A DNA stretch of 64,000 nt from Heliorestis convoluta (lineage in GTDB: Bacteria > Bacillota > Desulfitobacteriia > Heliobacteriales > Heliobacteriaceae): positions 3,108,001 through 3,172,000 of the forward strand of contig NZ_CP045875.1 of NCBI RefSeq assembly GCF_009649955.1, given 5' to 3'. The notes beneath the pieces were generated by a model. It saw only the letters and a program-made list of their open reading frames with translations, did no database searches and was not told the DNA's origin. The stretch's first letter is position 1; each line of letters starts with the position of its first letter. A program made the position numbers and the translations under genes. This document shows positions 13,754-58,624 of the stretch, piece by piece.

Positions 13754-13827
13754 AAGATGGCACTGCGTAGAATCTATCGAAGAAAGACTTGGAATTTGAA
13801 AGTGTGATTTGGGCGGTACAAGACGAT

Positions 13828-14808
13828 ATGAGCAAAAAAGTTGGAATTACAACAACCATACCAATAGAAGTTGTCTATGCAGCTGGTTTGAGGCCTGTTG
13901 ATCTAAACAATCTGTTTATTGCCGGAGAAAAACCAAATGAAGCAGTAGAAAAAGCAGAACAGGCTGGTTATCCACGGAACATCTGTGGTTGGATCAAAGG
14001 ACTCTATACAACTCTGTTGGAATCAAAAGAGATCGAGCAGGTTATAGCCGTCACACAAGGGGACTGCTCTAACACCCATGCTTTGATGGAAACTTGGCAA
14101 GCTGCAGGAATTGAAGTGATTCCTTTTGCCTTTCCCTATGATGGAGATTATGATCTGCTCAAATTGCAGATAGAAAAACTTATAAAAGCGCTTCATACAG
14201 ATTGGGATAGCGTTTATCTATGGAAGCAAAAGCTTGATAGAATACGCCAAAAAGCTCACCAAATCGATACGTGGACCTGGCAAAAAGGTTCTATCGATGG
14301 GAAGAACAATCATCAGGCTTTGGTTGGCTGTTCCGACTTTGACGGCAATCCTGATCAGTATGAAGCCTTTCTTGAACATATGCTACAAGCTGCAATTGGA
14401 CAAGAACAAAAAGGGGCGGTGCGCCTTGGTTATGTAGGCGTACCACCCATCTCCTATGATCTATACGATTATATTGAAAACCAAGGTGCCCAGATTGTGT
14501 TTAACGAGGTGCAGCGACAGTTTTCCATGCCCTTTGAGGTTTCTGACTTGGTCAAGCAGTATCAGCAGTACACCTATCCTTACTCCATTTTTCATCGACT
14601 CCGGGATATAGAGCAAGAAATTGAGCGTCGGAATATTGCGGGCATTATTCACTATACGCAGAGCTTTTGCTTTCGTCAAATCGAAGATATTATTTTGCGA
14701 CAAAGGCTCAATGTGCCCATATTGACCCTTGAAGGCGATCGACCAGGGCCTATAGATGCGAGAAGTCGCATGCGGATTGATGCTTTTATTGATATGTTGG
14801 CGTATTAA
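13828..14808 (+). CDS. 2-hydroxyacyl-CoA dehydratase D-component / double-cubane cluster family protein
   Basis: A 326-residue Fe-S protein of the HgdB/FldC/DCCP family. Cysteines available for cluster binding are in NICGWIKGLY, TQGDCSNTHAL, GCSDFDG and QSFCFRQIEDIIL. Only one such subunit is encoded, and its ATP-driven activator lies at 28370. That one-plus-one set resembles YjiM/YjiL and the double-cubane-cluster protein with its reductase, more than true heterodimeric dehydratases, so the substrate is unknown. I prefer ATG 13828 because MSKKVGITTTIPIEVVYAAG is the usual family start; TTG 13789 is also open. The last 285 bases are repeated exactly at 26784 and 27553. Confidence 0.8.
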   Translation: MSKKVGITTTIPIEVVYAAGLRPVDLNNLFIAGEKPNEAVEKAEQAGYPRNICGWIKGLYTTLLESKEIEQVIAVTQGDCSNTHALMETWQAAGIEVIPFAFPYDGDYDLLKLQIEKLIKALHTDWDSVYLWKQKLDRIRQKAHQIDTWTWQKGSIDGKNNHQALVGCSDFDGNPDQYEAFLEHMLQAAIGQEQKGAVRLGYVGVPPISYDLYDYIENQGAQIVFNEVQRQFSMPFEVSDLVKQYQQYTYPYSIFHRLRDIEQEIERRNIAGIIHYTQSFCFRQIEDIILRQRLNVPILTLEGDRPGPIDARSRMRIDAFIDMLAY

Positions 14809-14821
14809 TAACACAGCCCCC

Positions 14822-15287
14822 GGGCATGACTGGTCAGTACGAAAATAGATAATTTGTGGTGGGGTCAGGCGTTATGAATTCCTTCCGAACGGACTCATCC
14901 CACGCCATGAGCGGCAGCAAGCTGCCGATGGCTGAGGTCTGAAGTCCTCTCTCCAGGAAGTCATAACGCCTGACTCAGGTACATTTTGCTGGTTGTGACT
15001 GAGTTTTGGGCCTATTGCATTGCAAATACAATAGGTAGTTGCGGATAGAAGAAAGTTTCGCCAAGCTATTCCAACGGAAGTAACAATCAGCAAAAACCTT
15101 CTGGGTCAGGGCATCACGCTTTCCGCAGCGGGACTTGGGACCTCAGCTGTCGCCAGCTTGCTGGCGGTAACAGCGTGGGACCAGTCCAGAGCGGAGGAAA
15201 GCGTGATGACCTGGCCCCTCTATGAAGTAACCCCAACGTAATCAGGAAATATTGATTTTCATCGTTGGTTGTGCCCGACTGGGCATG
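14822..15287 (+). repeat. Paired-hairpin dispersed repeat, copy A (mosaic)
   Basis: A non-coding element of 466 bp that begins and ends with GGGCATG. It has two large imperfect hairpins: 14862-14976 and about 15105-15223. From 14524 to 14959 the sequence, including the dehydratase gene end and most of the first hairpin, is identical to copies B and C. From 14960 on it differs at roughly 30 positions. The copy is therefore a chimera of two element variants, with a recombination point at or just before 14960. The outer arms of hairpin 1 no longer match fully (CTGACTC against GGGTCAG). Confidence 0.9.
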
Positions 15288-15296
15288 ACTGGTTAG

Positions 15297-15824
15297 CTAA
15301 CGAGGAATATACTTAAAAATTTCACCCGTTTCAAAAGCATCAACAAGCCGATTCAGCCATTGGTAGTACTGTTGAGCTTCTTCAAGTCGGGCTACATCTC
15401 GTTGTGCTTTTTCTCTTAACTCATCAGGTGTTCTTTCGTCTGCGATCACAGCTTGAAGTTCTGAGAGAGAGCGTTCTATGGCGGCTTGGTTCATAACACT
15501 GCTTTTGCGCCACTTGATACAAAAGAAATGACTGAACGTTTCATACCAATCTTCTTCGACACGGTAGAGATCTTTTCGAACGCCTTTTTTCCATGTCTTT
15601 TCGACCATTTTGAGGTCTGTTAACGTTTTTACACCTGTGCTCATGCTCGTTTTGCTCATGCCCAGGGCTTCGCTCATTTCTTCAAGCGTCATCGGTCCAT
15701 CGTTAAAATAGAGGATACCGTAGAGTCGACCGATAGAAGGAGTTACGCCATAGAGGTCCATATTCTTAGAAAGAGCTTCTACGACTCTTTCCCGCGCTTT
15801 TTCGATGCGCTCTTGTGCATCCAC
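15297..15824 (-). CDS. GbsR-type (MarR-like) transcriptional regulator
   Basis: A 175-residue regulator closely resembling GbsR, the choline-responsive repressor of betaine genes in Bacillus: MDLYGVTPSIGRLYGILYF, then the helix-turn-helix MTLEEMSEALGMSKTSMSTGVKTL. It is divergent from a glycine-betaine ABC operon, the same neighbourhood as in Bacillus, which supports control of osmoprotectant uptake. Start: GTG 15824 lies 8 bases after AAGGAGG; ATG 15842, six codons longer, is also possible. Its stop codon is 10 bases from repeat copy A, so its 3' end abuts the recombination junction. Confidence 0.85.
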   Translation of the reverse strand: MDAQERIEKARERVVEALSKNMDLYGVTPSIGRLYGILYFNDGPMTLEEMSEALGMSKTSMSTGVKTLTDLKMVEKTWKKGVRKDLYRVEEDWYETFSHFFCIKWRKSSVMNQAAIERSLSELQAVIADERTPDELREKAQRDVARLEEAQQYYQWLNRLVDAFETGEIFKYIPR

Positions 15825-16022
15825 TGTTGTTTCCTCCTTCATTATCTCGCTCCATTGCCTTCTACAGTTTGCCTCTTTCATTGTATATAGATCGATTAAT
15901 AGATGAGATTTTTTCCTACACACCCTTTTGATTCTAATTGATCCCGCTGTTTGATGTAAAGTAGCAACATTTCCTTTAATGGATAGGAATCTGGAGGATA
16001 TGTACGGTGAAGGGACTTATGC

Positions 16023-16046
16023 TTTGTACAGTTTATTCTGTACAAA
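16023..16046. promoter_or_regulatory. Candidate operator for the GbsR-type regulator
   Basis: TTTGTACAG, six bases, CTGTACAAA: a perfect 9-bp inverted repeat in the 447-base gap between the regulator and the transporter operon, about 30 bases upstream of the operon's -35 box. A dimeric MarR-like repressor is expected to bind such a site. Assigning it to this regulator is an inference from position and symmetry. Confidence 0.6.
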
Positions 16047-16077
16047 AATTTCAGACCTTATGAACCTTATATGCTTT

Positions 16078-16107
16078 TTGATCTTTTTATTGCTTGTCTC
16101 TTATAAT
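16078..16107 (+). promoter_or_regulatory. Promoter of the glycine-betaine transporter operon
   Basis: TTGATC (16078-16083) and TATAAT (16102-16107), 18-base spacer. A leader of about 160 bases follows before the start codon; I see no known riboswitch in it. Confidence 0.55.
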
Positions 16108-16271
16108 TAAAAAGGTTCGATAGTTTTGGTAAAAAATACATCACTTTTACTGTACTTGCTATCTAGACCTGTGTTTCTGCTCTGGATTCCGAGATTCCTA
16201 GTATTTTTGCCAGTACGACCAAGCTTTATGGCTTACGTTTACTGGCGAAGAAGTTTGAAGGTGATAAAAAA

Positions 16272-17594
16272 TTGGCGAAAATTAAAGTTCAAAATGTAAG
16301 CAAGTTATTCGGCAAGCAAAAGAAAAAAGCTTTACAGCTTATCGATGCAGGACTGGGCAAGCAGGATATTTTAGAGCAAACAGGTGTAGCCGTAGGTGTA
16401 CACAATGTTAGCTTTGAGGTGCAACCCGGCGAAATTTTTGTGATTATGGGTTTATCGGGCAGTGGAAAGTCTACGTTGCTTCGAATGTTGAATCGCTTGA
16501 TTGAGCCGACTTCTGGTGAGATCTACATAGACGGTTCCAACCTTGTTGCGATGAAAGAGGACGCGTTGAGAGAACTGCGTCGCAAAAAGATTAGTATGGT
16601 TTTTCAACGCTTTGCTCTTCTTCCTCATCGCACAGTGCTCGCTAATGCTGCCTATGGCTTAGAGATTCAGGGTATGGCGGAAGCTGAACGGAAAGAAAAA
16701 GCGCAAGAAGCACTTCATCTTGTAGGTTTGCAAGGTTGGGAAGAGTCCTATCCCGATGAATTAAGTGGCGGTATGCAACAAAGAGTCGGCCTAGCAAGGG
16801 CACTGGCCAACGATCCCGATATACTTTTGATGGATGAAGCTTTTAGCGCTTTAGATCCGCTCATTCGAAAAGATATGCAAGACGAGCTTTTATCTTTGCA
16901 AGCGACGATGGAAAAAACGATCATCTTTATTACCCACGATCTTGATGAAGCGTTGCGCATTGGCGATCGCATTGCCTTAATGAAAGATGGCAAAATCGTG
17001 CAGTTGGGTTCACCAGAAGAGATATTAATGAATCCATCTAATTCTTATGTAGAGCGATTTGTAGAAGATATTGATCTCTCCCGCGTTTTAACAGCAGGTC
17101 ATGTCATGAATCGCCCTGAAACGATGGGTCTTGACAAAGGACCTCGTGTAGCTTTGCAGTTAATGCGTGAACGAGGTATCTCTACGATTTATGTGGTCGA
17201 TCGAAAACAAGTTCTTCACGGCGTGATCACAGCACAAGATGCTTCCAAGGCAATCGAAAAAGGCTTGTCCTTACAAGATATATTGATTCGCTCTGTTCCG
17301 ACTGTTTCTTTGGACACCCTTCTTTCTGATTTATTCGACAGGGTCTCAACCTCACCCGTGCCCGTTGCTGTTGTGGATGACCAAGGTAGAATCAAAGGTC
17401 TATTGATTAAAGGCGTCATTCTCGGCGCTCTAGCGGGAAATAAAGAAGCTCTTTCTTTTGATAAAGTTTTAGAAAAACAGAGTCTAGAAGATTTGCAGGA
17501 GGGACAAGGCGCTACACCCCAAGAACTACATCAAGAAAGTCAACGTAAGAATGAAAAGGATAGTCAAGCTCTTCCGGAAAGAGAGGTGGGCTAG
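16272..17594 (+). CDS. opuAA: Glycine betaine/proline ABC transporter, ATP-binding protein
   Basis: A 440-residue ATPase that drives uptake of glycine betaine or related osmoprotectants. It has the ProV-specific N-terminal extension (SKLFGKQKKKALQLIDAG), Walker A GLSGSGKST near residue 62, LSGGMQQRVGLARAL, Walker B LLMDEAFSALDP, and two C-terminal CBS domains (about residues 275-390) that sense ionic strength in OpuA. The TTG start follows GAAGGTG. The last 30 residues are a charged, Gln/Glu-rich tail beyond the usual family end. It overlaps nothing and is two bases from the permease gene. Confidence 0.93.
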   Translation: MAKIKVQNVSKLFGKQKKKALQLIDAGLGKQDILEQTGVAVGVHNVSFEVQPGEIFVIMGLSGSGKSTLLRMLNRLIEPTSGEIYIDGSNLVAMKEDALRELRRKKISMVFQRFALLPHRTVLANAAYGLEIQGMAEAERKEKAQEALHLVGLQGWEESYPDELSGGMQQRVGLARALANDPDILLMDEAFSALDPLIRKDMQDELLSLQATMEKTIIFITHDLDEALRIGDRIALMKDGKIVQLGSPEEILMNPSNSYVERFVEDIDLSRVLTAGHVMNRPETMGLDKGPRVALQLMRERGISTIYVVDRKQVLHGVITAQDASKAIEKGLSLQDILIRSVPTVSLDTLLSDLFDRVSTSPVPVAVVDDQGRIKGLLIKGVILGALAGNKEALSFDKVLEKQSLEDLQEGQGATPQELHQESQRKNEKDSQALPEREVG

Positions 17595-17596
17595 CC

Positions 17597-18427
17597 ATGG
17601 GTGAGCTCTTGCCAAAAATTCCGGTAGATCGAGCTATCGAAGCGGTGCTTGACTTTTTCCTTACGCATTTTGAGGGCTTTTTCCGCTTTTTGTCAAAGCA
17701 CTTGGAAAACTTTGTTGAACTCCTTGTTTTTATGATGTCTTTCTTTCCTTCTATTGTGTTGATTGCAGCACTTGCTGCTCTAGCTTGGTATGTTCGTGAT
17801 TGGAAATTTGCACTCTTCACGGGTCTCGGTTTGCTCTTTATTGAAAACATTGGTTATTGGAAGCAGACCATTGATACGCTTGCTCTTGTCTTAACGGCTG
17901 TGGCCATATCTGTGCTCCTCGGTGTACCAATAGGGATTTTATCAGCGCAACGAGATGGTGTCCGCAATGTGGTGACACCCATTCTTGACTTTATGCAGAC
18001 CATGCCTGCTTTCGTTTATCTCATTCCAGCTATCTTTTTCTTTGGTCTCGGTGTGGTACCTGGCATTGTAGCTTCTGTGATTTTTGCTATGCCTCCAACG
18101 ATTCGATTGACCAACCTAGGGATTCGACAAGTGCCGGCTGATCTGGTTGAAGTGTCTGATGCTTTTGGCTCTACAGCAAAGCAAAAGTTGTTGAAAGTTC
18201 AGTTGCCACTGGCTATGCCGACGATCATGGCTGGCGTGAATCAGAGCATTATGTTGGCACTGTCAATGGTCGTCATTGCTTCTATGATTGGCGCTCCAGG
18301 CCTTGGCGAAGAGGTGTACCGGGCTGTAACACAATTAAAAATTGGTTCTGGCTTTGAGGCTGGTCTAGCCATTGTCGTACTTGCCATTGTGCTGGATCGG
18401 TTTACTCAAAATATAAAAAAGAAGTAG
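17597..18427 (+). CDS. opuAB: Glycine betaine/proline ABC transporter, permease
   Basis: A 276-residue ProW-type permease. A soluble N-terminal segment leads into an amphipathic/transmembrane region, followed by the BPD permease core with the ATPase-contact loop at about residues 180-215 (DAFGSTAKQKLLKVQLPLAMP, the EAA motif). TMQTMPAFVYLIP/FFGLGVVPG is characteristic of betaine permeases. It is the second gene of the operon, directly after the ATPase. Confidence 0.93.
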   Translation: MGELLPKIPVDRAIEAVLDFFLTHFEGFFRFLSKHLENFVELLVFMMSFFPSIVLIAALAALAWYVRDWKFALFTGLGLLFIENIGYWKQTIDTLALVLTAVAISVLLGVPIGILSAQRDGVRNVVTPILDFMQTMPAFVYLIPAIFFFGLGVVPGIVASVIFAMPPTIRLTNLGIRQVPADLVEVSDAFGSTAKQKLLKVQLPLAMPTIMAGVNQSIMLALSMVVIASMIGAPGLGEEVYRAVTQLKIGSGFEAGLAIVVLAIVLDRFTQNIKKK

Positions 18428-18442
18428 AAAGGGGTTCTAGCT

Positions 18443-19351
18443 TTGAAAATTTCGTTTTTACAAGGTAAGAAAAAGCTAATGACACTCGCACTTACGGTAG
18501 GTTTTGCCGTTGCTTTGGCTGGCTGTGGCCAGGAAGGAACTGTCGATGGTGATGCTTCGATCGGTGCACAAGTTAATTATCAGATTACAGGAATTGATCC
18601 TGGTGCAGGCCTAATGAGAGCCACCGATCGAGTGCTTGAAGAGTATGAGTTAGATGGCTGGCGTGTACAGACGGGGTCCGGTCCTGCCATGACTGCCGCA
18701 TTAACGCGGGCTTACAACAACGAAGAGCCCATTATTGTAACAGGTTGGACACCACACTGGAAATTTTCTAAGTTCGATCTCAAGTATCTTGACGATCCGA
18801 AAGGCATTTATGGCGATGAGGAGTTCGTACATACGATTGTTCGCCTAGGCTTGAAGGATGATCATCCTGCTGCCTATGAAGTGCTGGATCGTTTTGCTTG
18901 GACGCCTGATGACATGGCTTCTATTATGGTGATGGTGGAAGATGGAATGCAGCCTACTGAGGCAGCCGCTTCTTGGATTGCCGACAATGCTGAAACTGTA
19001 GCAACCTGGACCGAAGGTGTAGAAGCCGTAGACGGTGATAGGCTCACTCTCGCCTATGTGGCTTGGGATTCTGAAATTGCTAGTAACAATGTGATTGCGC
19101 AAGTTCTAGAGACTGTTGGTTACGATGTGACGTTGCGTCAAGTAGAGCCTGGTCCCATGTGGGCTGGCGTAGCCGATGGCAGTGCCGATGCTATGGTAGC
19201 AGCCTGGTTGCCAACGACTCATGCGGACTATTACAGTGAATTCGAAGGTCGCTTTGAAGATCTTGGTGTGAATATGGTAGGAACGCGCATTGGTTTGGTC
19301 GTTCCTGCTTATATGGATATTGATTCAATTGAAGATTTGAATTCTAAGTAA
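18443..19351 (+). CDS. opuAC: Glycine betaine-binding lipoprotein of the ABC transporter
   Basis: A 302-residue substrate-binding protein anchored by a lipobox (LAGC, Cys near residue 28). The mature part has the OpuAC fold: VNYQITGIDPGAG, then GSGPAMTAALTRAY, and VTGWTPHWKFSKFDLKYLDDP, whose tryptophan belongs to the aromatic cage for the trimethylammonium head. A second WLPTTHADYY motif also matches the family. TTG start after AAAGGGG. A strong terminator ends the operon just after this gene. Confidence 0.93.
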   Translation: MKISFLQGKKKLMTLALTVGFAVALAGCGQEGTVDGDASIGAQVNYQITGIDPGAGLMRATDRVLEEYELDGWRVQTGSGPAMTAALTRAYNNEEPIIVTGWTPHWKFSKFDLKYLDDPKGIYGDEEFVHTIVRLGLKDDHPAAYEVLDRFAWTPDDMASIMVMVEDGMQPTEAAASWIADNAETVATWTEGVEAVDGDRLTLAYVAWDSEIASNNVIAQVLETVGYDVTLRQVEPGPMWAGVADGSADAMVAAWLPTTHADYYSEFEGRFEDLGVNMVGTRIGLVVPAYMDIDSIEDLNSK

Positions 19352-19354
19352 GGT

Positions 19355-19394
19355 AAAGGACCCTTCAGGCTGACGAGCCGAGGGTCCTTTTTTT
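19355..19394 (+). terminator. Terminator of the betaine transporter operon
   Basis: AAAGGACCCT pairs with AGGGTCCTTT, followed by a T run. Confidence 0.92.
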
Positions 19395-19430
19395 ATCGCT
19401 GCCAAGGTCGGAATGCCTTGGTTATATTTC

Positions 19431-19459
19431 TTGTCTGAATTGTGAAAAAGAGGTATAAT
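19431..19459 (+). promoter_or_regulatory. Promoter of the HipA-like gene
   Basis: TTGTCT (19431-19436) and TATAAT (19454-19459) with a 17-base spacer, 39 bases before the start codon. Confidence 0.65.
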
Positions 19460-19497
19460 ATTACATTGATAAAGCTGTGGGAAGGGAAGTAAAGCGG

Positions 19498-20661
19498 ATG
19501 AACTATACACTTATGAATAAGTATAGGCCCGTTGTGGAACTGAGCATTGACGAGGAAACGTCCGCTATCATAAAGGTCGGTCAGGTGCTTCATCCGGATT
19601 ATCTTCCAGTGGGTATCCAGATTACCAGGGGGATTCCAGACAGAAAAAGCCTCAATGACTGGTGGCGCGGACGTTCTATTCCAGCCAGCCGTTCCGGTAT
19701 ACGGAAAGCGCTTGCCCTTTTAAATGTATCCCATACGGAGCAGCTTCTCACCAAGTGCTATGGCTTGAGCCTGTCAGACCAGTATTGGATCAACCCCATA
19801 GAGCAGCCTTTGAAATGGGAGAATATTAATTTTTTCGAGAATACTTTTTCGGACGATGTAGGGAACGCTCTCTTTGGTCAGGCACCAGAAATCGGTGAGC
19901 TAGATTTGCTCTCGCCTTGCAATACTTCCGACGGATGGCTGAAAAAGAAGTGGAAGATTCTCGCTGGGGAACGGGTCCTCATCAAATCCGGAAGCAATCC
20001 ATTCCAGCAAGAACCTTTAAACGAGGTCCTTGCCACCTCCTTGCACAAGCGTCTGAACGGTGCGACCTATGTTCCGTACCATCTGATCTGGGAGAACAAC
20101 GTCCCCTACAGCGTCTGCTCGAATATAGTCACACCGGATACGGAGCTGGTTAGCGCCTACAACATTTTCAAGAGCCGAAAAAAGCAAAATCATCATTCTT
20201 TCTACGAGCACTTCTTGTTATGTTGCGACCACTTAGGCATATCAGGTATGAAGGAATTTTTGGACTATCTGCTAGTCTTTGATTTCCTGATTGTAAACAC
20301 AGACCGGCACTTCAATAACTTTGGCTGCATCCGAAACGTAGAAACTTTACATTGGCAGGGTCCCGCGCCGATTTTTGATAGTGGAACAAGTCTGTGGCAC
20401 GATCAAGTGAGTAGAGCCATTCTGCCGCAAAGCGATGTGCCTTGTCAGCCCTTCAAGGCTACTCACAGTCAACAGATTGTCCTTGCAGGCAATCTTGATT
20501 GGGTGGATTTTTCCGCCCTCCAAGATCTAGACGAGGAATTCCGAGCATTGCTTTCATCTTCTCCCTACATTGATGAGCCAAGAACCAATGCTTTATGTGC
20601 AGGGCTGAAGGGCCGTATACTTCAGTTGGAACAACTCGCCCTCAAACAGAAAATGCAGTAG
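19498..20661 (+). CDS. HipA-like protein kinase
   Basis: A protein of 387 residues with kinase landmarks in HipA order. RVLIKSGSN near residue 160 takes the place of the ATP-binding lysine strand; LNEVLATSLHKRL follows. NTDRHFNNFG near residue 265 is the catalytic DxxxxN loop, and PIFDSGTSLW near 290 the metal-binding Asp. The first 110 residues contain a segment (SLNDWWRGRSIPASRSGIRKAL) that may replace the HipB-like DNA-binding partner. No separate hipB gene is beside it, so it is either a solo kinase or carries its own regulator. Its GC-richer sequence differs from the AT-rich genes that follow. Confidence 0.7.
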   Translation: MNYTLMNKYRPVVELSIDEETSAIIKVGQVLHPDYLPVGIQITRGIPDRKSLNDWWRGRSIPASRSGIRKALALLNVSHTEQLLTKCYGLSLSDQYWINPIEQPLKWENINFFENTFSDDVGNALFGQAPEIGELDLLSPCNTSDGWLKKKWKILAGERVLIKSGSNPFQQEPLNEVLATSLHKRLNGATYVPYHLIWENNVPYSVCSNIVTPDTELVSAYNIFKSRKKQNHHSFYEHFLLCCDHLGISGMKEFLDYLLVFDFLIVNTDRHFNNFGCIRNVETLHWQGPAPIFDSGTSLWHDQVSRAILPQSDVPCQPFKATHSQQIVLAGNLDWVDFSALQDLDEEFRALLSSSPYIDEPRTNALCAGLKGRILQLEQLALKQKMQ

Positions 20662-20705
20662 CAGTGCTATCAAGCTGAGAGATTTTTTACTTGAGTCGGT
20701 CGAAG

Positions 20706-21059
20706 CTAGGCCCCTTCTGTCCCTAAATCTTTCATCAACTTTTGTACTGCTCTTTTTTCAATCCTGGAAACATAGGATCGTGAAATACCTAAGTTCTTAG
20801 CAATCTCACGCTGCGTTTGCCGAACACCACTGAGAAGTCCGTACCGTAATTCTAGAACGTAACGTTCTCTTTTCGTTAGTTTTTTCATCTTGTTGAGCAA
20901 TCTCGCTTGTTCGAGAGCGCTTTCGACGATATCAGGTACGCTGTCGCCGTCGGAACCTAAAATATCGATAAGAGTAATCTCATTGCCTTCTTTGTCAACG
21001 CCAATGGGATCGTGAAGAGATACTTCACCGCGCGTTTTCTTCATGGCCCGTAAGTGCAT
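20706..21059 (-). pseudogene. sigK: 3' half of sigK (sigma regions 3-4 only)
   Basis: The 117 readable residues match the C-terminal half of the mother-cell sigma factor sigma-K: MHLRAMKKTRGEVSLHDPIG, DKEGNEITLIDIL and the region 4 helix-turn-helix TQREIAKNLGISRSYVSRIEKR. Regions 1 and 2, which bind the -10 element and core polymerase, are absent. The homology extends a few codons upstream (EIL before MHLR) to about 21068, and then stops; this is almost exactly where skin elements interrupt sigK in other spore formers. No ribosome site precedes the ATG. A tyrosine recombinase gene lies 275 bases away. Either this is the distal half of an interrupted sigK or a displaced relic; the 5' half is not in the window. 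Confidence 0.85.
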
Positions 21060-21100
21060 GAGGATTTCGATATTAAAGTCATTATAGTAGCGGAAATATT

Positions 21101-21241
21101 TTACTTTTTATGGTTTGTTGGCTTACTTTCTTTTTCTTGTTCTTTATGTTTTTTGATGTATTTTTTATATAAATAGTAGTAGCACTTCAATTTGTTTATT
21201 TTTGTGCGTTCACCTTCCACTATTCGCACAGATAAAGCCAT
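21101..21241 (-). CDS. Small basic protein, unknown
   Basis: A 46-residue reading frame, MALSVRIVEGERTK followed by a Lys/Tyr-rich tail (KCYYYLYKKYIKKHK). The ATG at 21241 has AGGGGGTG 8 bases upstream. It lies between the recombinase gene and the sigK fragment on the same strand. The start region forms a hairpin (AAGCCATC with GATGGCTT, 21233-21283), which could limit its translation. The basic composition would suit a recombination directionality factor or a nucleic-acid binding peptide, but that is speculation. Confidence 0.45.
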   Translation of the reverse strand: MALSVRIVEGERTKINKLKCYYYLYKKYIKKHKEQEKESKPTNHKK

Positions 21242-21333
21242 CGCACCCACCCCCTGCTACAGGGTATGATGTGATGGCTTGTCTTTATTTTTGTAATTTA
21301 TCTTCGTTTTTCGGTTTTAGAGAAAAGTGATGA

Positions 21334-21891
21334 TTATAAAACTCTCCGTTTCATCTTCCCTCTAAGCTCTATAGGGTTCACGTGGGTATATATTTGCGTA
21401 GTCCGTATATCTGCATGACCGAGGATATCCTGAACTTCACGGATATTAAAGTCGTCGTTCAATAGCTCCGTGGCACAAGTATGACGTAGCATATGTGCAT
21501 GAACTCTTTTTATTCCAGCTCGTTTGCAGTACCGCTCTAACATGGCATTGACATATCGTGGATTCACAGGGTTCCCTTCTAGTGTACATAAAAATGTCTT
21601 TGACCCTTTTGGTTTTACTTCTTTCCAATCCCGTAAGGCAACAATTGTTGGATAGTCCAAAGGCACGACTCTCTCCTTATCTCCTTTACCTACTATTCTT
21701 ATTTGGCCTTCTGCCCACTGAATTTGACTTGTTCTTAGCCCTACTGCTTCTGAGACTCTAAGTCCTGACCTATACATGAGGAGTATTAAACCTAGATTTC
21801 TTTTTCCAGTCATACAACGACAGTTAATTACACTAATTAGTTTCCGCACCTCTTCTTTTGTAACGATTGTGGGCAATCTCCGCTTTGTCAT
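21334..21891 (-). CDS. Tyrosine recombinase (catalytic domain only)
   Basis: This 185-residue site-specific recombinase of the XerC/D-integrase superfamily has the full active-site set in order: Arg in MYRSGLRVSEAVGL, Lys in VGKGDKERVVPL, HxxR in HMLRHTCATEL, His in LGHADIRTTQ and the nucleophile Tyr in IYTHV. The N-terminal core-binding (SAM-like) domain is missing, making it similar to short integrases of mobile elements. ATG 21891 follows GGGAGG at 8 bases. It reads toward the sigK fragment; the arrangement suggests a sigK-associated element, though known skin elements use serine recombinases. Confidence 0.85.
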   Translation of the reverse strand: MTKRRLPTIVTKEEVRKLISVINCRCMTGKRNLGLILLMYRSGLRVSEAVGLRTSQIQWAEGQIRIVGKGDKERVVPLDYPTIVALRDWKEVKPKGSKTFLCTLEGNPVNPRYVNAMLERYCKRAGIKRVHAHMLRHTCATELLNDDFNIREVQDILGHADIRTTQIYTHVNPIELRGKMKRRVL

Positions 21892-22075
21892 TTTAATCCC
21901 TCCCAAAAACAAATAGTACTTAATTTATACATTATAAGTACTATATAACCTTCTTTTTCATTTCCATGTGGCTTTTGTATAAATTCGGTACTATTTTGTA
22001 TGTCGAGTAATAAATTTAGTTGTCTTATTAGTAGTTAGCAACGTCCAACTTAGTGAATATTTAGAATAAATATAC

Positions 22076-22138
22076 AAAAAAAGAAAGCGACCATAAATCC
22101 CATTCAATAAGGCTAAAGTCACTTTCTTTTTTGGGAAA
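22076..22138. terminator. Bidirectional terminator after the AT-rich gene cluster
   Basis: AAAAAAGAAAGCGAC pairs with GTCACTTTCTTTTTT around a 29-base loop. It has T tracts in both directions, so it can end the minus-strand operon that stops at 22283. The remainder of the 391-base gap 21892-22282 shows no gene. Confidence 0.6.
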
Positions 22139-22282
22139 AAATGCTTGGCGTAAATCGTGGTAACTCTAAAAATGTTTTTATGATCGCTAGGAAACATGTT
22201 CTTGCAAGTGAGTAGCTTCACTTTGCTCAATTTATCCTCGCATTATAAGTATCTAATCAAAGCTATAGTTTATATATAATTG

Positions 22283-23455
22283 TTAAACACTTAAACCGCT
22301 TTGTTTGATTTTGTTAAATAATACCTTTTTTGTGATAGTATCATTGTAATGCCACTCAATTAATGTTACATTTTCTTTCTTGCACAAAGCTTTCTTCTTA
22401 CTATCTAATTCAATTCTTCGTTTAAAGCTTTCTTCTCCCCCAAAAAAATCTATAGGTTCGTAATGCTGTAATCCCTGATATTCAAAGGCTAATCTAAGAC
22501 TTGGAATATAAATATCTAAAGATTGAGGACATAACCATGATGGTCGATGTTGAAAAATCGCATCTTCAAAATACTTTGCTACGAGGTCAAATAATTTTTT
22601 TTCGGATTCCCATCTAACATGTATTTTGTTTGATTTAACTAAGTCAGTATAAATTTGCTCTTTTTCTGCTTTCCATATGTCGCAATTTTCATCATTAATA
22701 TGTTCTCTAATGAATTTTTCTGTTTTTTCGTATTCTTCTTGAATAGGAACCATTATTTTCTCTCTCAAGAAGAATGACATTTCTAACTCCGTGTCAAAAA
22801 CATTTTCTTTCATTATTTGTTCAATTATCTCTCTAGTTTCTTTTATCTTATAAGGATCTGTATCACGTCTAAACATGTTTCCGCAAAAATGAACTAAATC
22901 ATTTGGTTTTGGAAATATGGTTGGTTTACCATTAAACGATGCCAAGTCTGTAATAAAAGATAAATCACTTCCGTAAATTCTATAGCCTATTAAACCCTGA
23001 GCTCCAATACTCCAAGGTATAAGTCTGGATAGTAATAAGATATTTTTAAACTCTCGTTTTTCAAAACAAATCATATGGTTAATACTGGTGTCATCTGGTA
23101 CTAGATTGGGCAAAGTTTTAAAAATAGAAGCTCTATTTGCCACTTCAACAGCTATGTAATAATTTTTCCTAGGTAAATAACTAAAAAACATAGTAATAAG
23201 GTTATCATTCTTATACTTTTCTATATCATTGAGTAAAGGTCTTAACCATTCTTCTATATCAGCTTTCCTAGGAGAAGTAGCCAAGTTTTTTATTTCCTTC
23301 TCTGTGGAATCCCAAATCTCCATTTCTTCATTCATTGTTACCATTAAAAAGTTTTCTAGACCTAGCTCTTTAAACTCAGAAGATATTCTTTCAATGGATA
23401 CATTATTTTTTTTATTGCTAAGACGACTATAGAATTCTTCAAGTTTCAAAAGCAC
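22283..23455 (-). CDS. PD-(D/E)XK nuclease-like protein of an AT-rich accessory cluster
   Basis: A 390-residue protein whose last 100 residues look like a restriction-endonuclease-fold domain: QSLDIYIPSLRLAFEYQGLQ gives the Asp and ExQ positions, and RIELDSKKKALCKKE the following Lys; a Vsr-like WHY strand comes after. The first 290 residues are mostly helical, charged and not recognised. The start is GTG 23455 or, better spaced after AGGAGG, TTG 23449. It is the last gene of a three-gene minus-strand set with a zinc-ribbon protein and an ATPase-nuclease. Codon use is much more AT-rich than the flanks, suggesting transfer. A defence role is an inference. Confidence 0.6.
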   Translation of the reverse strand: MLLKLEEFYSRLSNKKNNVSIERISSEFKELGLENFLMVTMNEEMEIWDSTEKEIKNLATSPRKADIEEWLRPLLNDIEKYKNDNLITMFFSYLPRKNYYIAVEVANRASIFKTLPNLVPDDTSINHMICFEKREFKNILLLSRLIPWSIGAQGLIGYRIYGSDLSFITDLASFNGKPTIFPKPNDLVHFCGNMFRRDTDPYKIKETREIIEQIMKENVFDTELEMSFFLREKIMVPIQEEYEKTEKFIREHINDENCDIWKAEKEQIYTDLVKSNKIHVRWESEKKLFDLVAKYFEDAIFQHRPSWLCPQSLDIYIPSLRLAFEYQGLQHYEPIDFFGGEESFKRRIELDSKKKALCKKENVTLIEWHYNDTITKKVLFNKIKQSGLSV

Positions 23456-23461
23456 CCCTCC

Positions 23462-23677
23462 TCATCTTTCATAAACAAAAAACAAGTTTTTTCCACAACT
23501 CGGGCAGTAAATGCAAAGCCTGTATTCATTTTCATTAAAACCGTAAATGTTAGCTATAGGCTTATTTAAAATATGAACAGTGTAGCTTCTTGTTAACATA
23601 TACTCAGGTATCATAGCCATCCACTCAAAGCTATAATTGCAATCATCACAAGTAAGATGTCCTGTAAGACTAGACAA
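23462..23677 (-). CDS. Small zinc-ribbon protein
   Basis: A 71-residue protein with two CxxC pairs, LTCDDCNYSF near the N-terminus and YCPSCGKNLFF near the C-terminus, consistent with a single zinc ribbon. The TTG start at 23677 has AGGAGGGG immediately upstream. It ends six bases before the nuclease-like gene starts, so the two are co-translated. Function unknown; likely an accessory subunit of this three-gene set. Confidence 0.6.
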   Translation of the reverse strand: MSSLTGHLTCDDCNYSFEWMAMIPEYMLTRSYTVHILNKPIANIYGFNENEYRLCIYCPSCGKNLFFVYER

Positions 23678-23713
23678 ATATTCCCCTCCTAGTGATTATC
23701 CAAAGCTGAATCG

Positions 23714-24826
23714 TCATTGTTTCTGGAACTTCAAACCTAAATTTTTTTCTATAAATTCCTTCATTCTAATTATCTTAATTTTCGTTAGTAAGCTTTGATT
23801 GTCTAAATAATAAATATTTTTACCTTCTTTATCTTTCCCTATATACAATTCTCTTTCTTCATCTTGGACATCGGACATTAATATTGAGCCATGTTTTAGA
23901 TCCTTTTCAAAATCCCAACAAATAATCCATCTGATATTCGAAAAAGAGTGGTTAAAGTTTTTACTTAAAACATATTTCAGTTCCACATACCAATATTCAC
24001 AATCTGATATTTTATTATCAGTCTTATTTCTCGCTATAATATCTATTCCTTGTCTTGTATTATAATCTAATGGTTCAAAGTCGAACTTATCTGGAAATAT
24101 GGTGTAAATCATAATAAATAAACCAAATAATTCCGATTCATTTTTTGGTTCAAGCACTGAAATTTCGTTTATCTTTAAGATTCTTCTCTTTGCTATTGAT
24201 TCTTTTCTTTGATTAAACTCCACATTTTCGATTCTTAATGTTTTCTCTTCTAATTGCCACTTTTGAAGTGTATTTATATCTTTTTTGTATAGAAATTCAT
24301 CTATGCTTTCTAATATAGTATTAAGTTCCTTTTTTAGTTCTTCAACTATTTGTGGCTCTGTATTTGCAATTGTTCCACGATTTGCTGTTAGTTTTAGGTT
24401 TTGACAATTAATAAATCCGTGAAGTAGAGTATATGAACTTGTCCCTCCACCAAAACCACTAATCCATTCGTTTACTCTTTGTATAGGGATGAAATCTTTA
24501 CACAACCAAATTCCATAACGGTCTTGAACCTTGTAATAGCCTTTTGTTTTACTTTTCTTTTTTCTTAAAAGTGGATTATATGATTGCTTAGCTTCATTTC
24601 CTTCAAAATATATTACAGCATCATACTTTACCTCTGGTCTATGCTCGAGTCTTTGGTTTATAAAAGTGAATTTTTTCGCATAATAATCTATTGCATTTGC
24701 ACTGTACTTTTCAAATAACTCTTCAATATTATCATTTTGTTCTGCAAATATATGCCCAAACTTCAGTTCTTCATAATTTTCAACATCTAAACATTTCAAA
24801 TAAACCTTAAAATCTGGTGGTACGTT
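23714..24826 (-). pseudogene. HSP90-like (GHKL) ATPase with nuclease-like tail, 5' end cut off by an IS element
   Basis: The remaining 370 codons resemble the second half of large HSP90/MORC-like ATPases: YGIWLCKDFIPIQRVNEWI, then NLKLTANRGTIANT. The C-terminal domain has a D-ExK pattern (GIDIIARN, WYVELKYVL) suggesting a restriction-type nuclease fold. The N-terminal ATP-binding GHKL domain is missing. The open frame runs without a start codon straight into the terminal repeat of the IS at 24826, where a stop appears. TTG 24799 is the first possible start but has no ribosome site. It heads the operon with the zinc ribbon and the nuclease, so the set is probably inactive. Confidence 0.75.
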
Positions 24827-26492
24827 CCCAATGTCATAAACCTATGCTTCCAATAATTTAAAATTATCGTTAAAATCCTCGTATACTACGATAATTTTGC
24901 TCATTCGCTTTAGCAAAACTATACGATAGGGGATGATAGCAAAGGCCGTTATAATAAAAATGACAATACAATGCCCGGGACTTGCTTTTGGAATTAAATA
25001 ACAAGCCCCTATGAACTCTGTTTAATTACTTTCAACAGATCAGTATTGTATAGAAAATGAGTTTACAGTGATCTCTTCTTATTCATAGTATTTTTATTAG
25101 CATTACCTCTCATATTGCGAGGGCTACTTCTTCCAGGACGTATTGGTACTACATTGCGATGCAGCTCATCCATAATCTTACGAAACATGGCCGTTCGCTT
25201 TTCAGTGTTATCTTCAAGTAACATAAGTACTAACGAATCTTTCAATTTACCAATTAGAATGTTTATATTGACCTGATATTTATACTTTAAATCTTTATCT
25301 TCATTTTTTTGTGTAATTTCTTCATTCACTTCATTTTTCGCTAACGCTGCCATATTTGCTAAGTACATGGAAGCATAAAAATCTTGCTTTACAGCAAGTT
25401 CCGTTTCTCCTGTGAAATTTTGTAGTTGAAGTTTGTTCTTTAATTCATCAAATTTTACTTCTATCCCCCAACGCTTGAAGTAAAGCGATTTGAATTCTTG
25501 AATCCCCAGGCTTTCATCAAATAGGTTTGTGACAAGAACTTCCTCTATCTCAGAGTCTAACATGAATCGAAGAAGACGAACCTTAATTGGTTTTCCTTTA
25601 ACCATAATCTCAATAATTTGATCTGGTTCCTGTGCTAAATTAAACTCAGTCATCGAATTAACTTTCACACGCATTAGGTACTTAATTTTGCTACTTTCTA
25701 AGTATGCGATGAAATCTTTCGAGGGATATCCACGGTCAAAAAGAATAAGGTCATTTTTTAGACCCAAAGTTTTTAATTTCTCAATCAGTTTTATAGCAAT
25801 TTCTCTTTCACCAGTGGTATATTTAGTAATCTCTGATGCAAGTATCATGTCATTTTCAATATCGTAAATACATGATGCTTTAGCACGTGCAAGCTTAACA
25901 TCCTTACCTTCGGCATAACCAAAAGCTTTTCTTAATTCTTCTGAATTGTGTACTTCCAAAATTGATGCATCGATAGAAGAAAGTCTATATCCGTTAAATT
26001 TTTTAAAGTCGTCATCACCATAGTACCAAGTTATTATATTGTCGCCCATTTTAACAAAGGCTTCGTGCGAAACTTTCTGTCTTGCTTGGGAGAATCCTTG
26101 CTTTGTAATAGTGTATTCCACCCCTTTGATTTTTTCAAAGTATAAATCTAATTCTAATTGCAATGTCTTTTTTACATAGTTAAGTATAAATAAGATGAGA
26201 TCATTAAAAGTCATTTTACAATTAACTGCTCGTGTGAAATAAGTGGGTTTTATTCTATTTTCACACATAAAGACAATATCAGCAATAAGTTTCTCTGTAT
26301 GTAGTAATCCATCCAAAAAAGTCTTCATAGAAACAATCGTCACCATTCTTTATTTGATATACCAATTAATGATATACAAAATAATATGGTGACGATTTAA
26401 AAAGTCAATCATTTTTAATTATTCATTCCACATTGATTAACAGCCTAATAAAAACCAACCTATTTATGGAACCATAGGTTTATGACATTGGG
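24827..26492 (-). mobile_element. IS4-family insertion sequence
   Basis: A 1666-bp element bounded by 26-bp inverted repeats with one mismatch: CCCAATGTCATAAACCTATG at 24827 and its complement ending at 26492. It holds one full-length transposase gene. The flanking bases (TACGTT left, CACGCC right) do not form a target duplication, so the sequences now on its two sides were probably not joined originally; a deletion or recombination adjacent to the element is likely. Confidence 0.9.
25063..26346 (-). CDS. IS4-family DDE transposase
   Basis: An intact transposase of 427 residues. The catalytic residues are visible: first Asp in SSIDASILEV (about residue 122), second Asp in LILFDRGYPSKDF (about 200), and the Glu within the IS4 signature Y-2-R-3-E-6-K, YFKRWGIEVKFDELK (about 288-302). 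The C-terminus is basic, as usual. It fills most of the element between the two inverted repeats. With full-length sequence and matching ends it could still be active. Confidence 0.9.
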   Translation of the reverse strand: MVTIVSMKTFLDGLLHTEKLIADIVFMCENRIKPTYFTRAVNCKMTFNDLILFILNYVKKTLQLELDLYFEKIKGVEYTITKQGFSQARQKVSHEAFVKMGDNIITWYYGDDDFKKFNGYRLSSIDASILEVHNSEELRKAFGYAEGKDVKLARAKASCIYDIENDMILASEITKYTTGEREIAIKLIEKLKTLGLKNDLILFDRGYPSKDFIAYLESSKIKYLMRVKVNSMTEFNLAQEPDQIIEIMVKGKPIKVRLLRFMLDSEIEEVLVTNLFDESLGIQEFKSLYFKRWGIEVKFDELKNKLQLQNFTGETELAVKQDFYASMYLANMAALAKNEVNEEITQKNEDKDLKYKYQVNINILIGKLKDSLVLMLLEDNTEKRTAMFRKIMDELHRNVVPIRPGRSSPRNMRGNANKNTMNKKRSL

Positions 26493-26783
26493 CACGCCCC
26501 AGTAGCCTTGCACGAGTAGGAAAAGATTACTTTTATTCAAAATAAAGTAAAAAAGAGCTGTTTTCAAAAAAACTCTTTACAAAATGAAAAAAACTCCTAT
26601 TGTAGAAAGAGTAGACCTTGTTCGGTTCCCAACACCAACAAGTCTTTCTACAAAGGAGTTCCAAAAATTGAATAACATAAGTATAAAACAGAAAAATGGT
26701 CATACGTCAATGCTTATCGATGCTTCCATGGAACAGTACAAATGCCCTTTGTTAAATTATGAATATGATAAACTTGATACCGA
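26493..26783 (+). pseudogene. Remnant: long hairpin and truncated reading frame
   Basis: Between the IS and repeat unit B lies an AT-rich 291-base scrap. ACTCCTATTGTAGAAAGA (near 26596) is complementary to TCTTTCTACAAAGGAGT (near 26645) and would form a stem of about 18 bp. A frame starting TTG 26668 behind AAAGGAGTTCC encodes NISIKQKNGHTSMLIDASM and about 20 more residues, then is cut at the exact edge of the 769-bp unit (26784). It may be the 5' end of another transposase gene, but I cannot name it. Confidence 0.4.
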
Positions 26784-27068
26784 TCCATGCCCTTTGAGGT
26801 TTCTGACTTGGTCAAGCAGTATCAGCAGTACACCTATCCTTACTCCATTTTTCATCGACTCCGGGATATAGAGCAAGAAATTGAGCGTCGGAATATTGCG
26901 GGCATTATTCACTATACGCAGAGCTTTTGCTTTCGTCAAATCGAAGATATTATTTTGCGACAAAGGCTCAATGTGCCCATATTGACCCTTGAAGGCGATC
27001 GACCAGGGCCTATAGATGCGAGAAGTCGCATGCGGATTGATGCTTTTATTGATATGTTGGCGTATTAA
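26784..27068 (+). pseudogene. Truncated 3' copy of the dehydratase gene, unit B
   Basis: The last 94 codons plus stop of the gene at 13828-14808, beginning at the codon region for MPFEVSDLVKQYQQY and ending AFIDMLAY. No promoter or ribosome site precedes it. One cluster cysteine (SFCFRQ) remains; the fragment cannot be functional by itself. Confidence 0.95.
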
Positions 27069-27081
27069 TAACACAGCCCCC

Positions 27082-27552
27082 GGGCATGACTGGTCAGTAC
27101 GAAAATAGATAATTTGTGGTGGGGTCAGGCGTTATGAATTCCTTCCGAACGGACTCATCCCACGCCATGAGCGGCAGCAAGCTGCCGATGGCTGAGGTCT
27201 GAAGTCCTCTCTCCAGGAATTCATAACGCCTGACCCAGGTACATCTTGCTGGTTGTGACTGAGTTTGGGCCTATTGCAAATACAAATACAATAGGCAGTT
27301 GCGTATACATCGCAGAAAGGTGCGCAAAGCAATGTCAACGGAAAGTAACAATCAGCAAAAACGCTCTGGGCCTGGGCATCACGATTTCCAGAGCGGGACT
27401 TGGGACCTCAGCTGTCGCCAGCTTGCTGGCGGTAACAGCGTGGGACCAGTCCAGAGCGGAGGAAAGCGTGATGCCCAGGCCCCTCTATGAAGTAACCCCC
27501 ATGTGATCAGGAAATATTGATTTTCATCGTTGGTTGTGCCCGACCGGGCATG
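27082..27552 (+). repeat. Paired-hairpin dispersed repeat, copy B
   Basis: This 471-bp copy starts with GGGCATG and ends with CCCGACCGGGCATG. Hairpin 1 is 27122-27236 and hairpin 2 is 27368-27482, each 115 bases. Outer arms are perfect: GTCAGGCGTTATGAATTCC with its complement in hairpin 1, GGGCCTGGGCATCACG with its complement in hairpin 2. Between them is a smaller stem GCCTATTG...CAATAGGC. Reading frames crossing it differ between copies and are not genes. Confidence 0.95.
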
Positions 27553-27837
27553 TCCATGCCCTTTGAGGTTTCTGACTTGGTCAAGCAGTATCAGCAGTAC
27601 ACCTATCCTTACTCCATTTTTCATCGACTCCGGGATATAGAGCAAGAAATTGAGCGTCGGAATATTGCGGGCATTATTCACTATACGCAGAGCTTTTGCT
27701 TTCGTCAAATCGAAGATATTATTTTGCGACAAAGGCTCAATGTGCCCATATTGACCCTTGAAGGCGATCGACCAGGGCCTATAGATGCGAGAAGTCGCAT
27801 GCGGATTGATGCTTTTATTGATATGTTGGCGTATTAA
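27553..27837 (+). pseudogene. Truncated 3' copy of the dehydratase gene, unit C
   Basis: Identical to the fragment in unit B: about 94 codons plus stop of the dehydratase gene, with no start signals of its own. Confidence 0.95.
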
Positions 27838-27850
27838 TAACACAGCCCCC

Positions 27851-28321
27851 GGGCATGACTGGTCAGTACGAAAATAGATAATTTGTGGTGGGGTCAGGCG
27901 TTATGAATTCCTTCCGAACGGACTCATCCCACGCCATGAGCGGCAGCAAGCTGCCGATGGCTGAGGTCTGAAGTCCTCTCTCCAGGAATTCATAACGCCT
28001 GACCCAGGTACATCTTGCTGGTTGTGACTGAGTTTGGGCCTATTGCAAATACAAATACAATAGGCAGTTGCGTATACATCGCAGAAAGGTGCGCAAAGCA
28101 ATGTCAACGGAAAGTAACAATCAGCAAAAACGCTCTGGGCCTGGGCATCACGATTTCCAGAGCGGGACTTGGGACCTCAGCTGTCGCCAGCTTGCTGGCG
28201 GTAACAGCGTGGGACCAGTCCAGAGCGGAGGAAAGCGTGATGCCCAGGCCCCTCTATGAAGTAACCCCCATGTGATCAGGAAATATTGATTTTCATCGTT
28301 GGTTGTGCCCGACCGGGCATG
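27851..28321 (+). repeat. Paired-hairpin dispersed repeat, copy C
   Basis: Identical to copy B. Hairpin 1 is 27891-28005 and hairpin 2 is 28137-28251. It forms the immediate upstream region of the dehydratase activator gene, so any transcript entering from the left must pass through both hairpins. Confidence 0.95.
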
Positions 28322-28369
28322 GAGGGTTAACATTAAAGTTTAATGAAGATGGGGGCTTTTGCAAAGTCT

Positions 28370-29122
28370 ATGAATATTGGACTTGATCTTGGGAGTCGCT
28401 TTGTCAAAGCCGTTTTTTTTCGAGAAGGTACTATGGTAGAACAACGGTATTACGATACGCTTGCTTTTTATCGACAGTATGGCCGCAAAATAGGAGAAGA
28501 GCTGGTCATCGATAAAAAAGCACTACAATGGCCTTCTTATGAAAGTGTTGTCTCAACAGGCTACGGAAGGAATTTGATTCAAGTCTCTGGGGGCAAGGCT
28601 ATCCCTGAGCTACGAGCTCATACAACGGGTGCTATCTACCAAACGGGACTTCAAGACTTTACCTTGCTTGACTTGGGTGGACAAGATAGTAAAGTTATCA
28701 AAGTGAAAAATGGGCGTATGATTGATTTTCGAACGAATGATAAATGCGCAGCCTCTTCAGGACGGTATCTAGAGAATATGGCGCATGTCTTAGGCCTAAA
28801 GGTGGAAGAATTAAGCAATTGTCTGGATAACCCCGTCCCTCTTTCTTCGACCTGTGCTGTTTTTGGAGAATCAGAATTGATTGGACGTATTATTGAAGGA
28901 CATAGCATCGAAGCTTTAGCTGCCGGTGTTAATGAAACGATTGTTAAACGAGTAGAACCAATGCTTAAAGAACTTTATAGCCCGACCATCGTCTTTACTG
29001 GTGGTGTCGCCTACAATAGTGCCATCAAAACCATGTTACGAGAGGTAGTTCAAGCAGAAATTATCGTCCCCCAGTATCCCCAATTAAACGGTGCCATCGG
29101 TTGTGCTGTTTACCCAGTATGA
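28370..29122 (+). CDS. BadF/BadG/BcrA/BcrD ATPase, activator (reductase) of the 2-hydroxyacyl-CoA dehydratase family
   Basis: A 250-residue HgdC-type ATPase of the actin/Hsp70 fold. It uses ATP to push an electron at very low potential into the dehydratase or double-cubane protein. GLDLGSRFVKAV is the phosphate-1 loop, LLDLGGQDSKVI phosphate-2, FTGGVAYN the adenosine motif. The two cysteines that hold a [4Fe-4S] cluster across the homodimer are in NDKCAASSGRYLE (about residue 126) and SSTCAVFGESEL (about 161). ATG 28370 begins with the conserved MNIGLDLG; ATG 28343 is possible. Its presumed partner is 13.5 kb away at 13828, separated by rearrangement. Confidence 0.9.
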   Translation: MNIGLDLGSRFVKAVFFREGTMVEQRYYDTLAFYRQYGRKIGEELVIDKKALQWPSYESVVSTGYGRNLIQVSGGKAIPELRAHTTGAIYQTGLQDFTLLDLGGQDSKVIKVKNGRMIDFRTNDKCAASSGRYLENMAHVLGLKVEELSNCLDNPVPLSSTCAVFGESELIGRIIEGHSIEALAAGVNETIVKRVEPMLKELYSPTIVFTGGVAYNSAIKTMLREVVQAEIIVPQYPQLNGAIGCAVYPV

Positions 29123-52365: not shown

Positions 52366-52473
52366 TTTTGTAGGCCTCCTTGTTGTAATGGCTTGGACTA
52401 CCTTTACAGTTCCCCTGTTGGAATGACGGTAATCAAGGAGGTTTTTGGAAATTGGTTTTGTTGGACCAAACTT

Positions 52474-52896
52474 TCCTGATCACGTTGGGGTTACTTTATG
52501 CGGGGGCCTGGTCATCACGCTTTCCTCCGCTCTGGACTGGTCCCACGCTGTTACCGCCAGCAAGCTACTGATACGCTGAGGTCCCAAGTCCCGCTGCGGA
52601 AAGCGTGATGCCCAGGCCCAGAGGGTTTTTGCTGATTGTTACTCCCGTTGGAATAGCTTGGCGAAACTTCCTGCTATACGCAACGGCTATTGTATTTGCA
52701 ATGCAATAGGCCAAAACTCAGTCACAACCAGCAAGATGTACCTGGGTCAGGCGTTATGACTTCCTGGAGAGAGGACTTCAGACCTCAGCCTTTCACGCAG
52801 CTTGCTGCCGCTTATGGCGTGGGATGAGTCCGTTCGGAAGGAAATCATAACGCCTGACCCCACCACAGAGTAGCAATTAACCATTTTCGTACTAGC
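52474..52896 (-). repeat. Paired-hairpin dispersed repeat, copy D (diverged, ends eroded)
   Basis: Inverted relative to copies A-C. Hairpin 2 is about 52504-52619 and hairpin 1 about 52744-52860. Both terminal GGGCATG motifs are lost and the inner stems carry unpaired changes (for example CTACTGATACG in place of CTGGCGACAG), so this is the oldest or least constrained copy. It fills most of the 696-base gap 52366-53061; the rest holds no gene. Confidence 0.9.
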
Positions 52897-54614: not shown

Positions 54615-54790
54615 GAGTTGAGGTAGAGGCGCGGTAGTTCAAGAGTAGATTCAAGAAGGTCCAAAGGCATGGACGATGCATTGAATTGAAAGGGTTCAAC
54701 CGCCGAAGCTGAGACGATTGCACAAGTCCCAGCTGGGTCTGCAGTGAATAGCTGCAGGACTGTCACCACGGAGCATTCCCACCTTGATTT
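54615..54790 (+). ncRNA. Lysine riboswitch (L box)
   Basis: Conserved L-box blocks appear in order: GTAGAGGCGCGGTAG, AAGAGTA, GAAAGGG, CCGCCGAAGC, CAGCTGGGTCTGC, AGTGAATAGCTGCAGGACTG and TCACCACGGAGCATTCCCACC. The outer P1 strands close around 54617 and 54785. It lies directly upstream of diaminopimelate decarboxylase, the last step of lysine synthesis, and is followed by a terminator, so lysine should switch transcription off. Confidence 0.93.
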
Positions 54791-58158: not shown

Positions 58159-58624
58159 CATGCCCGGTCGGGCACAACCATTTGATGAAAATCAGCTTTT
58201 TCTGATTACGTTGGGGTTACTTTGTGCAGGGGCCTGGTCATCACGCTTTCCTCCGCTCTGGACTGGTCCCACGCTGTTACCGCCAGCAAGCTGGCGACAG
58301 CTGAGGTCCCAAGTCCCGCTGCGGAAAGCGTGATGCCCAGGCCCAGAGGGCTTTTTACTGATTGTTACTTTCCGTTGACATTGCTTTGCGTAACGTCCTG
58401 CTATGTTTACACAGCTGCCTATTGTATTTGCAATAGGCCCAAACTCAGTCACAACCAGCAAAATGTACCTGGGTCAGGCGTTATGAATTCCTGGAGAGAG
58501 GACTTCAGACCTCAGCCATCGGCAGCTTGCTGCCGTTCATGGCGTGGGATGAGTCCGTTCGGAAGGAAATCATAACGCCTGACCCACCACAAATTATCTA
58601 TTTTCGTCTTAACCAGCCATGCCC
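58159..58624 (-). repeat. Paired-hairpin dispersed repeat, copy E
   Basis: A 466-bp inverted copy with both GGGCATG ends (CATGCCC on +). Hairpin 2 is 58230-58344 and hairpin 1 is 58471-58585, each 115 bases as in copies B and C. The flanks GGGGGGTTAACAGG and GGCTGGTTAAGAC (element strand) share a GGTTAA just outside the GGGCATG on both sides. It sits between the permease-thioredoxin operon and the arsR gene. Confidence 0.93.

Follow-up and report, generated by a model that had tools for sequence, protein, structure and literature searches.

What event yields a repeat copy that equals two others base for base up to one position and differs from them throughout beyond it? The question is raised by copy A of a repeated unit in the window, the whole 64,000-nucleotide stretch of the Heliorestis convoluta chromosome analysed here, in which copies B and C of the same unit follow at the far end of an 11.5-kb block. 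Positions are those of the window unless marked as genome positions.

Copy A switches from identity to divergence inside a hairpin

The earlier note held that 14524-14959 equals 26784-27219, that about 30 changes appear only after 14959, and that copy A is a chimera. The identity is exact and extends to the third copy (14524-14959 = 26784-27219 = 27553-27988, a run of 436 bases), and the 34 differing columns of the A/B pairwise alignment all lie 3′ of 14959, as do all 36 columns that differ between A and B in a family alignment of 59 copies. An even spread of differences over the unit, which would have spoken against a switch, was looked for at base level and is not what the alignment holds (P = 1.7e-13 for 34 of 34 differences beyond column 436 of 770 if evenly spread); the observation stands. 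The repeated unit opens with 285 bases from the 3′ end of an hgdD-like protein gene; these lie outside the element proper, which is non-coding, about 450 bases long and made up of two long hairpins. Upstream of 14524, 26784 and 27553, homology between the three copies was not found.

14524..14959, + strand: left part of copy A, identical in B and C; 285 nt of hgdD 3′ end, then the left part of the element to mid-hairpin 1
14862..14978, + strand: hairpin 1 of copy A; fold -35.3 kcal/mol, z -8.0
14930..14959, + strand: switch interval, 30 nt identical in A, in B/C and in element 433366+ (genome position)
14960..15287, + strand: right part of copy A; short-spacer subfamily, nearest copy element 433366+, beside sleB
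15104..15222, + strand: hairpin 2 of copy A; fold -40.6 kcal/mol, z -7.2
26784..27552, + strand: unit B; hgdD 3′ end and element, 769 nt, identical to C
27553..28321, + strand: unit C; identical to B over 769 bases, followed by the activator gene

In the family alignment, A alone carries the variant at two of the 36 columns and B/C alone at three; of the remaining columns, one has an allele found in just one further copy, and nearly all the others have alleles found in several. With about 30 of 36 differing columns carrying alleles of other copies, A does combine two element copies, as had been claimed, and point mutation of A is rejected. A genomic copy matching 14960-15287 had been proposed as a check, and the nearest one, element 433366+, is identical to A over 14930-15249 except at 14975 and 15008, where A has changes of its own (a T at 14975 and an additional G within a G run at 15008). 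Leftwards, the first mismatch between A and 433366+ is at 14929, and rightwards the first mismatch between A and B is at 14960, which delimits the switch to 30 nt. The arms of hairpin 1 are indeed mismatched in A (AATTCC / GGAAGTC), but they are no recombination scar: no other arm pair is as frequent in the family (23 of 59 copies have it), and the mismatch therefore marks no event in A.

A dispersed family of two-hairpin elements

Around 77 copies of the element, 59 of them nearly complete, were located in the genome by pattern search and by mapping of fetched stretches, the copies being compared over sequence stretches around elements and rRNA starts. The element hairpins, folded as single-stranded DNA, have z of about -7 to -9; the ends of the element vary between copies while the internal hairpins are clear, and no target duplication is evident by eye at element copies. 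Two stretches are common to most copies, 14885-14959 and 15109-15215; 31-mers around 14885-14940 are present in 37-52 of the 59 copies, and in about 40 of 59 at the join. In the window, examples are the following.

14838-15288: element of copy A
27098-28321: elements of units B and C
52467..52878, - strand: element copy D
58159..58607, - strand: element copy E

Miniature inverted-repeat and REP/BIME-like palindromic repeats occur in bacteria. The present elements are like REP families (PMC3733652) and MITEs in being short, non-coding, hairpin-forming and dispersed (about 77 copies in one genome), and unlike them in their length of about 450 bp, in their two 115-nt hairpins of related sequence and in matching no Rfam family. 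At the Rfam gathering threshold the element has no family match, and below it matches at chance level only; a known RNA family was thus rejected as its identity. Related element pieces exist in H. acidaminivorans and in one further heliobacterium, and a pattern scan of the contigs of genomes other than its own matched at two loci, including one in H. acidaminivorans. The family is apparently undescribed.

A short palindromic module, GGTTGTGCCCGACCGGGCATG, occurs at genome positions 809474-809897 and in about 60 places, at element ends but also alone or clustered without hairpins. Between copies D and E, the window has a lysine riboswitch at 54616-54829 (Rfam RF00168, 105.8 bits).

The two halves of A come from different chromosomal neighbourhoods

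Gene order in related genomes identifies the native context of each half. In six other heliobacteria the hgdD gene adjoins a dehydratase activator gene, and both genes are present in the window.

13789..14808, + strand: hgdD-like gene, intact; 2-hydroxyglutaryl-CoA dehydratase D-component family (Pfam PF06050 HGD-D, E 1.4e-34)
28343..29122, + strand: dehydratase activator gene, BadF/BcrA family (Pfam PF01869, E 5.3e-36)

The window is collinear with H. acidaminivorans contig C34 over 4231-52471 except for an insertion between hgdD and the activator gene, synteny resuming at 28335, after unit C. In H. acidaminivorans the order sleB, element fragment, gbsR, opuA, ..., sigK is found, and in the H. 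convoluta record element 433366+ adjoins sleB and the right part of A adjoins gbsR. From these gene orders and the collinearity with C34, the left part of A is native and its right part imported, the native junction of element and activator gene being that of C. As judged from alleles and neighbours, copy A is the left part of the hgdD-activator element (N hereafter) continued by the right part of the sleB-gbsR element (X). Separately, collinearity with C34 ends exactly at element D, with the last syntenic base at 52471, and this may be another doubtful join.

An 11.5-kb block interrupts the hgdD-activator pair

Six other heliobacteria have hgdD and the activator gene side by side; here the block between A and B separates them, and it contains the following features.

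15288..26783: block between A and B, 11.5 kb
15297-15923, - strand: gbsR-like gene
16272-19351, + strand: opuA
20706-21059 (given also as 20704-21069), - strand: C-terminal half of sigK
21334-21912, - strand: tyrosine integrase gene adjoining the sigK C-half
24823-26496: DDE transposase IS with ~30-bp inverted ends, inserted beside a truncated IS
26490..26783, + strand: truncated IS, first 293 nt; 99% match to a longer copy at 3034.5 kb (genome), stopping at the junction

The join at 26783/26784 is blunt: the first 293 bases of the IS give way to hgdD sequence, with a one-base overlap. In H. acidaminivorans, gbsR-opuA and sigK sit in another region, and the block probably belongs elsewhere in the chromosome, as far as gene order can tell. 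A horizontally acquired island was rejected for the left part of the block, where gbsR, opuA and sigK are chromosomal genes with H. acidaminivorans orthologues. ORF 19477-20661 has weak HipA_C similarity, and H. acidaminivorans has two other genes at this place, from opuA to sigK.

The N-terminal half of sigK lies at genome positions 2750885-2751345 on the + strand; after it comes a 498-aa ORF, by its sequence a putative serine recombinase. In the record, whose order is doubtful, the halves are 378 kb apart and in opposite orientation, and sporadic spore formation is reported for strain HH. Unless the block is misplaced, sigK would need rejoining by inversion. A split sigK whose N-half adjoins a 498-aa recombinase-like gene resembles the skin element of Bacillus and Clostridioides (PMC5025042). 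In a skin-type element the halves are in direct orientation and excision rejoins the gene; the present halves are not (N-half +, C-half -, 378 kb apart), and the C-half belongs to a block that is probably misplaced.

Further flank duplications of near-zero age

When the flanks of all copies were compared, A and B proved not to be the only pair of this kind. Five pairs of elements have one exact shared flank and switch inside the element (genome positions 883082/2727758, 923771/1774893, 445962/2918124, 433366/1244979 and 1057178/1114470), and a further pair, 922723/1747977, has the flank alone in common. The seven shared tracts, A/B included, are 200-530 nt each and together hold 1 mismatch in about 2,500 nt, at a divergence of element copies from each other that is commonly 5-12%. 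At their outer ends these tracts break off bluntly, and microhomology is slight or absent; the shared flank is on the left in three pairs and on the right in others, and the switch points vary within the element, falling in or beside 14885-14959 and 15109-15215, the stretches common to most copies. An AMP-ligase-like gene is complete at 434 kb, and its first part is also present with copy 1244979. A process acting over time would leave duplications of intermediate divergence, and none was seen among the seven tracts, which counts for assembly over recombination.

The record joins truncated 16S genes to other sequence

CP045875, of Heliorestis convoluta HH, was published as a complete circular chromosome of 3,218,981 bases (PMC7143216), of which the window is bases 3108001-3172000. 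It was assembled with Velvet from 14-fold 454 GS20 and 35-fold Illumina GAIIx data, long reads not being mentioned in the published methods. A search with the 16S 5′ end found ten 16S rRNA starts in the record, nine of which stop after about 65-365 nt and continue as other sequence or meet the end of the record.

Cut 16S starts (genome positions): 133561; 3215447; 3218868; 3334; 1681800; 1448503; 1459256; 3003546; 3035062
16S running directly into 23S-like sequence: at 3448, 3215511 and 1459338
16S running into element pieces: at 3035242 and 1681688
16S running into other DNA: at 1448185, 3003331 and near 133925

The 23S at 3448 is spanned by an LSU match, those at 3215511 and 1459338 were read by eye, and other 23S calls are Rfam matches. 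One 16S start runs up against the end of the record, whose first bases lie within the 3′ part of 23S; the tenth enters a stretch reading N and may be a complete gene. Nine 16S stumps are not credible biology, and we therefore conclude that contigs were butt-joined at repeats, so that false joins at repeats are present elsewhere in the same record. GS20 reads are about 100 bases long and the default k-mer limit of Velvet is 31; the element, at 450 bp and in about 77 copies, is a repeat longer than the reads, with identical stretches at the join.

A contig misjoin is the probable origin of copy A

Taken together, these results suggest, with a probability of roughly 0.78, that copy A is a contig misjoin from short-read assembly and that the join at 14930-14959 is false. 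Reads of N (hgdD-N-activator) and X (sleB-X-gbsR) would share the 30 identical bases of hairpin 1 at 14930-14959, and the assembler or a finisher would have crossed there from N into X, giving a contig with hgdD, N-left, X-right, gbsR, opuA and the C-half of sigK. This contig would end 293 bases into an IS repeat and would have been butt-joined there to contigs starting in hgdD, B and C, which would hold the hgdD-N-activator junction of the actual chromosome; one chromosomal piece would then have gone into the record repeatedly, and this would account for the 436 identical bases.

Several lines of evidence favour this misjoin. Besides the 16S stumps of a record built from short reads with Velvet, these are the near-identity of the seven flank duplications, with no spread of ages; the start of B and C at the same base without upstream homology, like contigs leaving one graph node; the resemblance of the 26783/26784 join to the 16S joins, a repeat being entered for 293 nt and followed by unrelated DNA; the position of the switch points in or beside stretches common to most copies; and the restoration of both the hgdD-activator and the sleB-element-gbsR orders when the block is returned. 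Known short-read contig misjoins are alike in their repeats longer than reads, in joins at stretches identical among copies, in duplicated contig ends and in truncated rRNA genes butted to other sequence. They are unlike the present case in that the record, published as a single finished circle, shows almost no gap characters here and leaves its joins unmarked.

Other points weigh against a misjoin. The right part of A differs from 433366+ at 14975 and 15008, which requires a sequencing or consensus error or a repeat collapse; the stretch common to N and X, at 30 nt, is below read length; publication presented the record as a complete circle; a block that had truly moved would disrupt these adjacencies too, and the restored order by itself does not tell the two apart; and the double output of a 769-nt unit by short-read assembly lacks a detailed account.

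Alternative explanations

The earlier note had read the switch as a trace of homologous recombination or gene conversion; the composite nature of A upholds part of this reading, while the changed right flank and the butt-joined contigs of the record make it not the best explanation. Real ectopic recombination, the strongest competitor though an unlikely one, would consist of an N x X crossover within the 30 bases of hairpin 1 joining hgdD to gbsR, with the far end closed by illegitimate joining inside the IS (homology-facilitated illegitimate recombination) and the 769-nt unit then duplicated in tandem. Both halves do come from identifiable and correctly oriented partners, the switch lies within 14930-14959 with flanks exchanged (hgdD on the left, gbsR on the right), homologous exchange favours the same conserved stretches as assembly, and A has two private changes relative to 433366+. 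One homologous end, in the element, together with one blunt end is moreover the pattern described in PMC3240628, in a system where the DNA is incoming and linear; here it is the cell's own chromosome, and both sources are still present in duplicate.

This duplication is a difficulty for the crossover: N-left is found in A, B and C and X-right in A and 433366+, a conservative exchange would not duplicate both, and no reciprocal X-left/N-right product was seen next to the activator gene. Recombination would also need several separate events, would have to account for seven flank duplications all of near-zero age in a record that contains false joins at repeats, and would leave the sigK halves opposite and 378 kb apart in a strain reported to make spores. 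A broader reading, that the joins are real and that the ~77 hairpin elements are live exchange points which recently shuffled element-bounded segments, carrying gene fragments, breaking an operon and leaving sigK as two inverted halves at a distance of 378 kb, which inversion by a recombinase, in place of excision, could reunite, appears improbable.

Transposition of the unit with misread ends, carrying along 285 nt of the neighbouring gene, is very unlikely. The unit starts with CCATGCCC and ends with GGGCATG, so that its ends form an inverted repeat of 7 bases (at least 7 by direct reading), and short flank pieces are common to other element copies; however, shared flanks on either side and variable switch points would not be given by a fixed-end transposase, no transposase with matching ends was noticed, and the block between A and B would be left unexplained. 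Gene conversion, in which some other copy would have replaced A's right half with flanks kept, agrees with a block of alleles found in other copies and is the least probable of all, since a tract inside the element cannot change the flank and the right flank of A is gbsR, whereas in six other heliobacteria the activator gene follows hgdD; conversion alone is rejected.

Implications for heliobacterial genomics

Few heliobacterial genomes seem to have been finished, CP045875 among them. Should its joins at this repeat and at the rRNA operons be false, conclusions based on this record about gene order and operons, the number of rRNA genes, sigK or apparent recombination would need checking. The element family itself merits proper study, given a long-read assembly.
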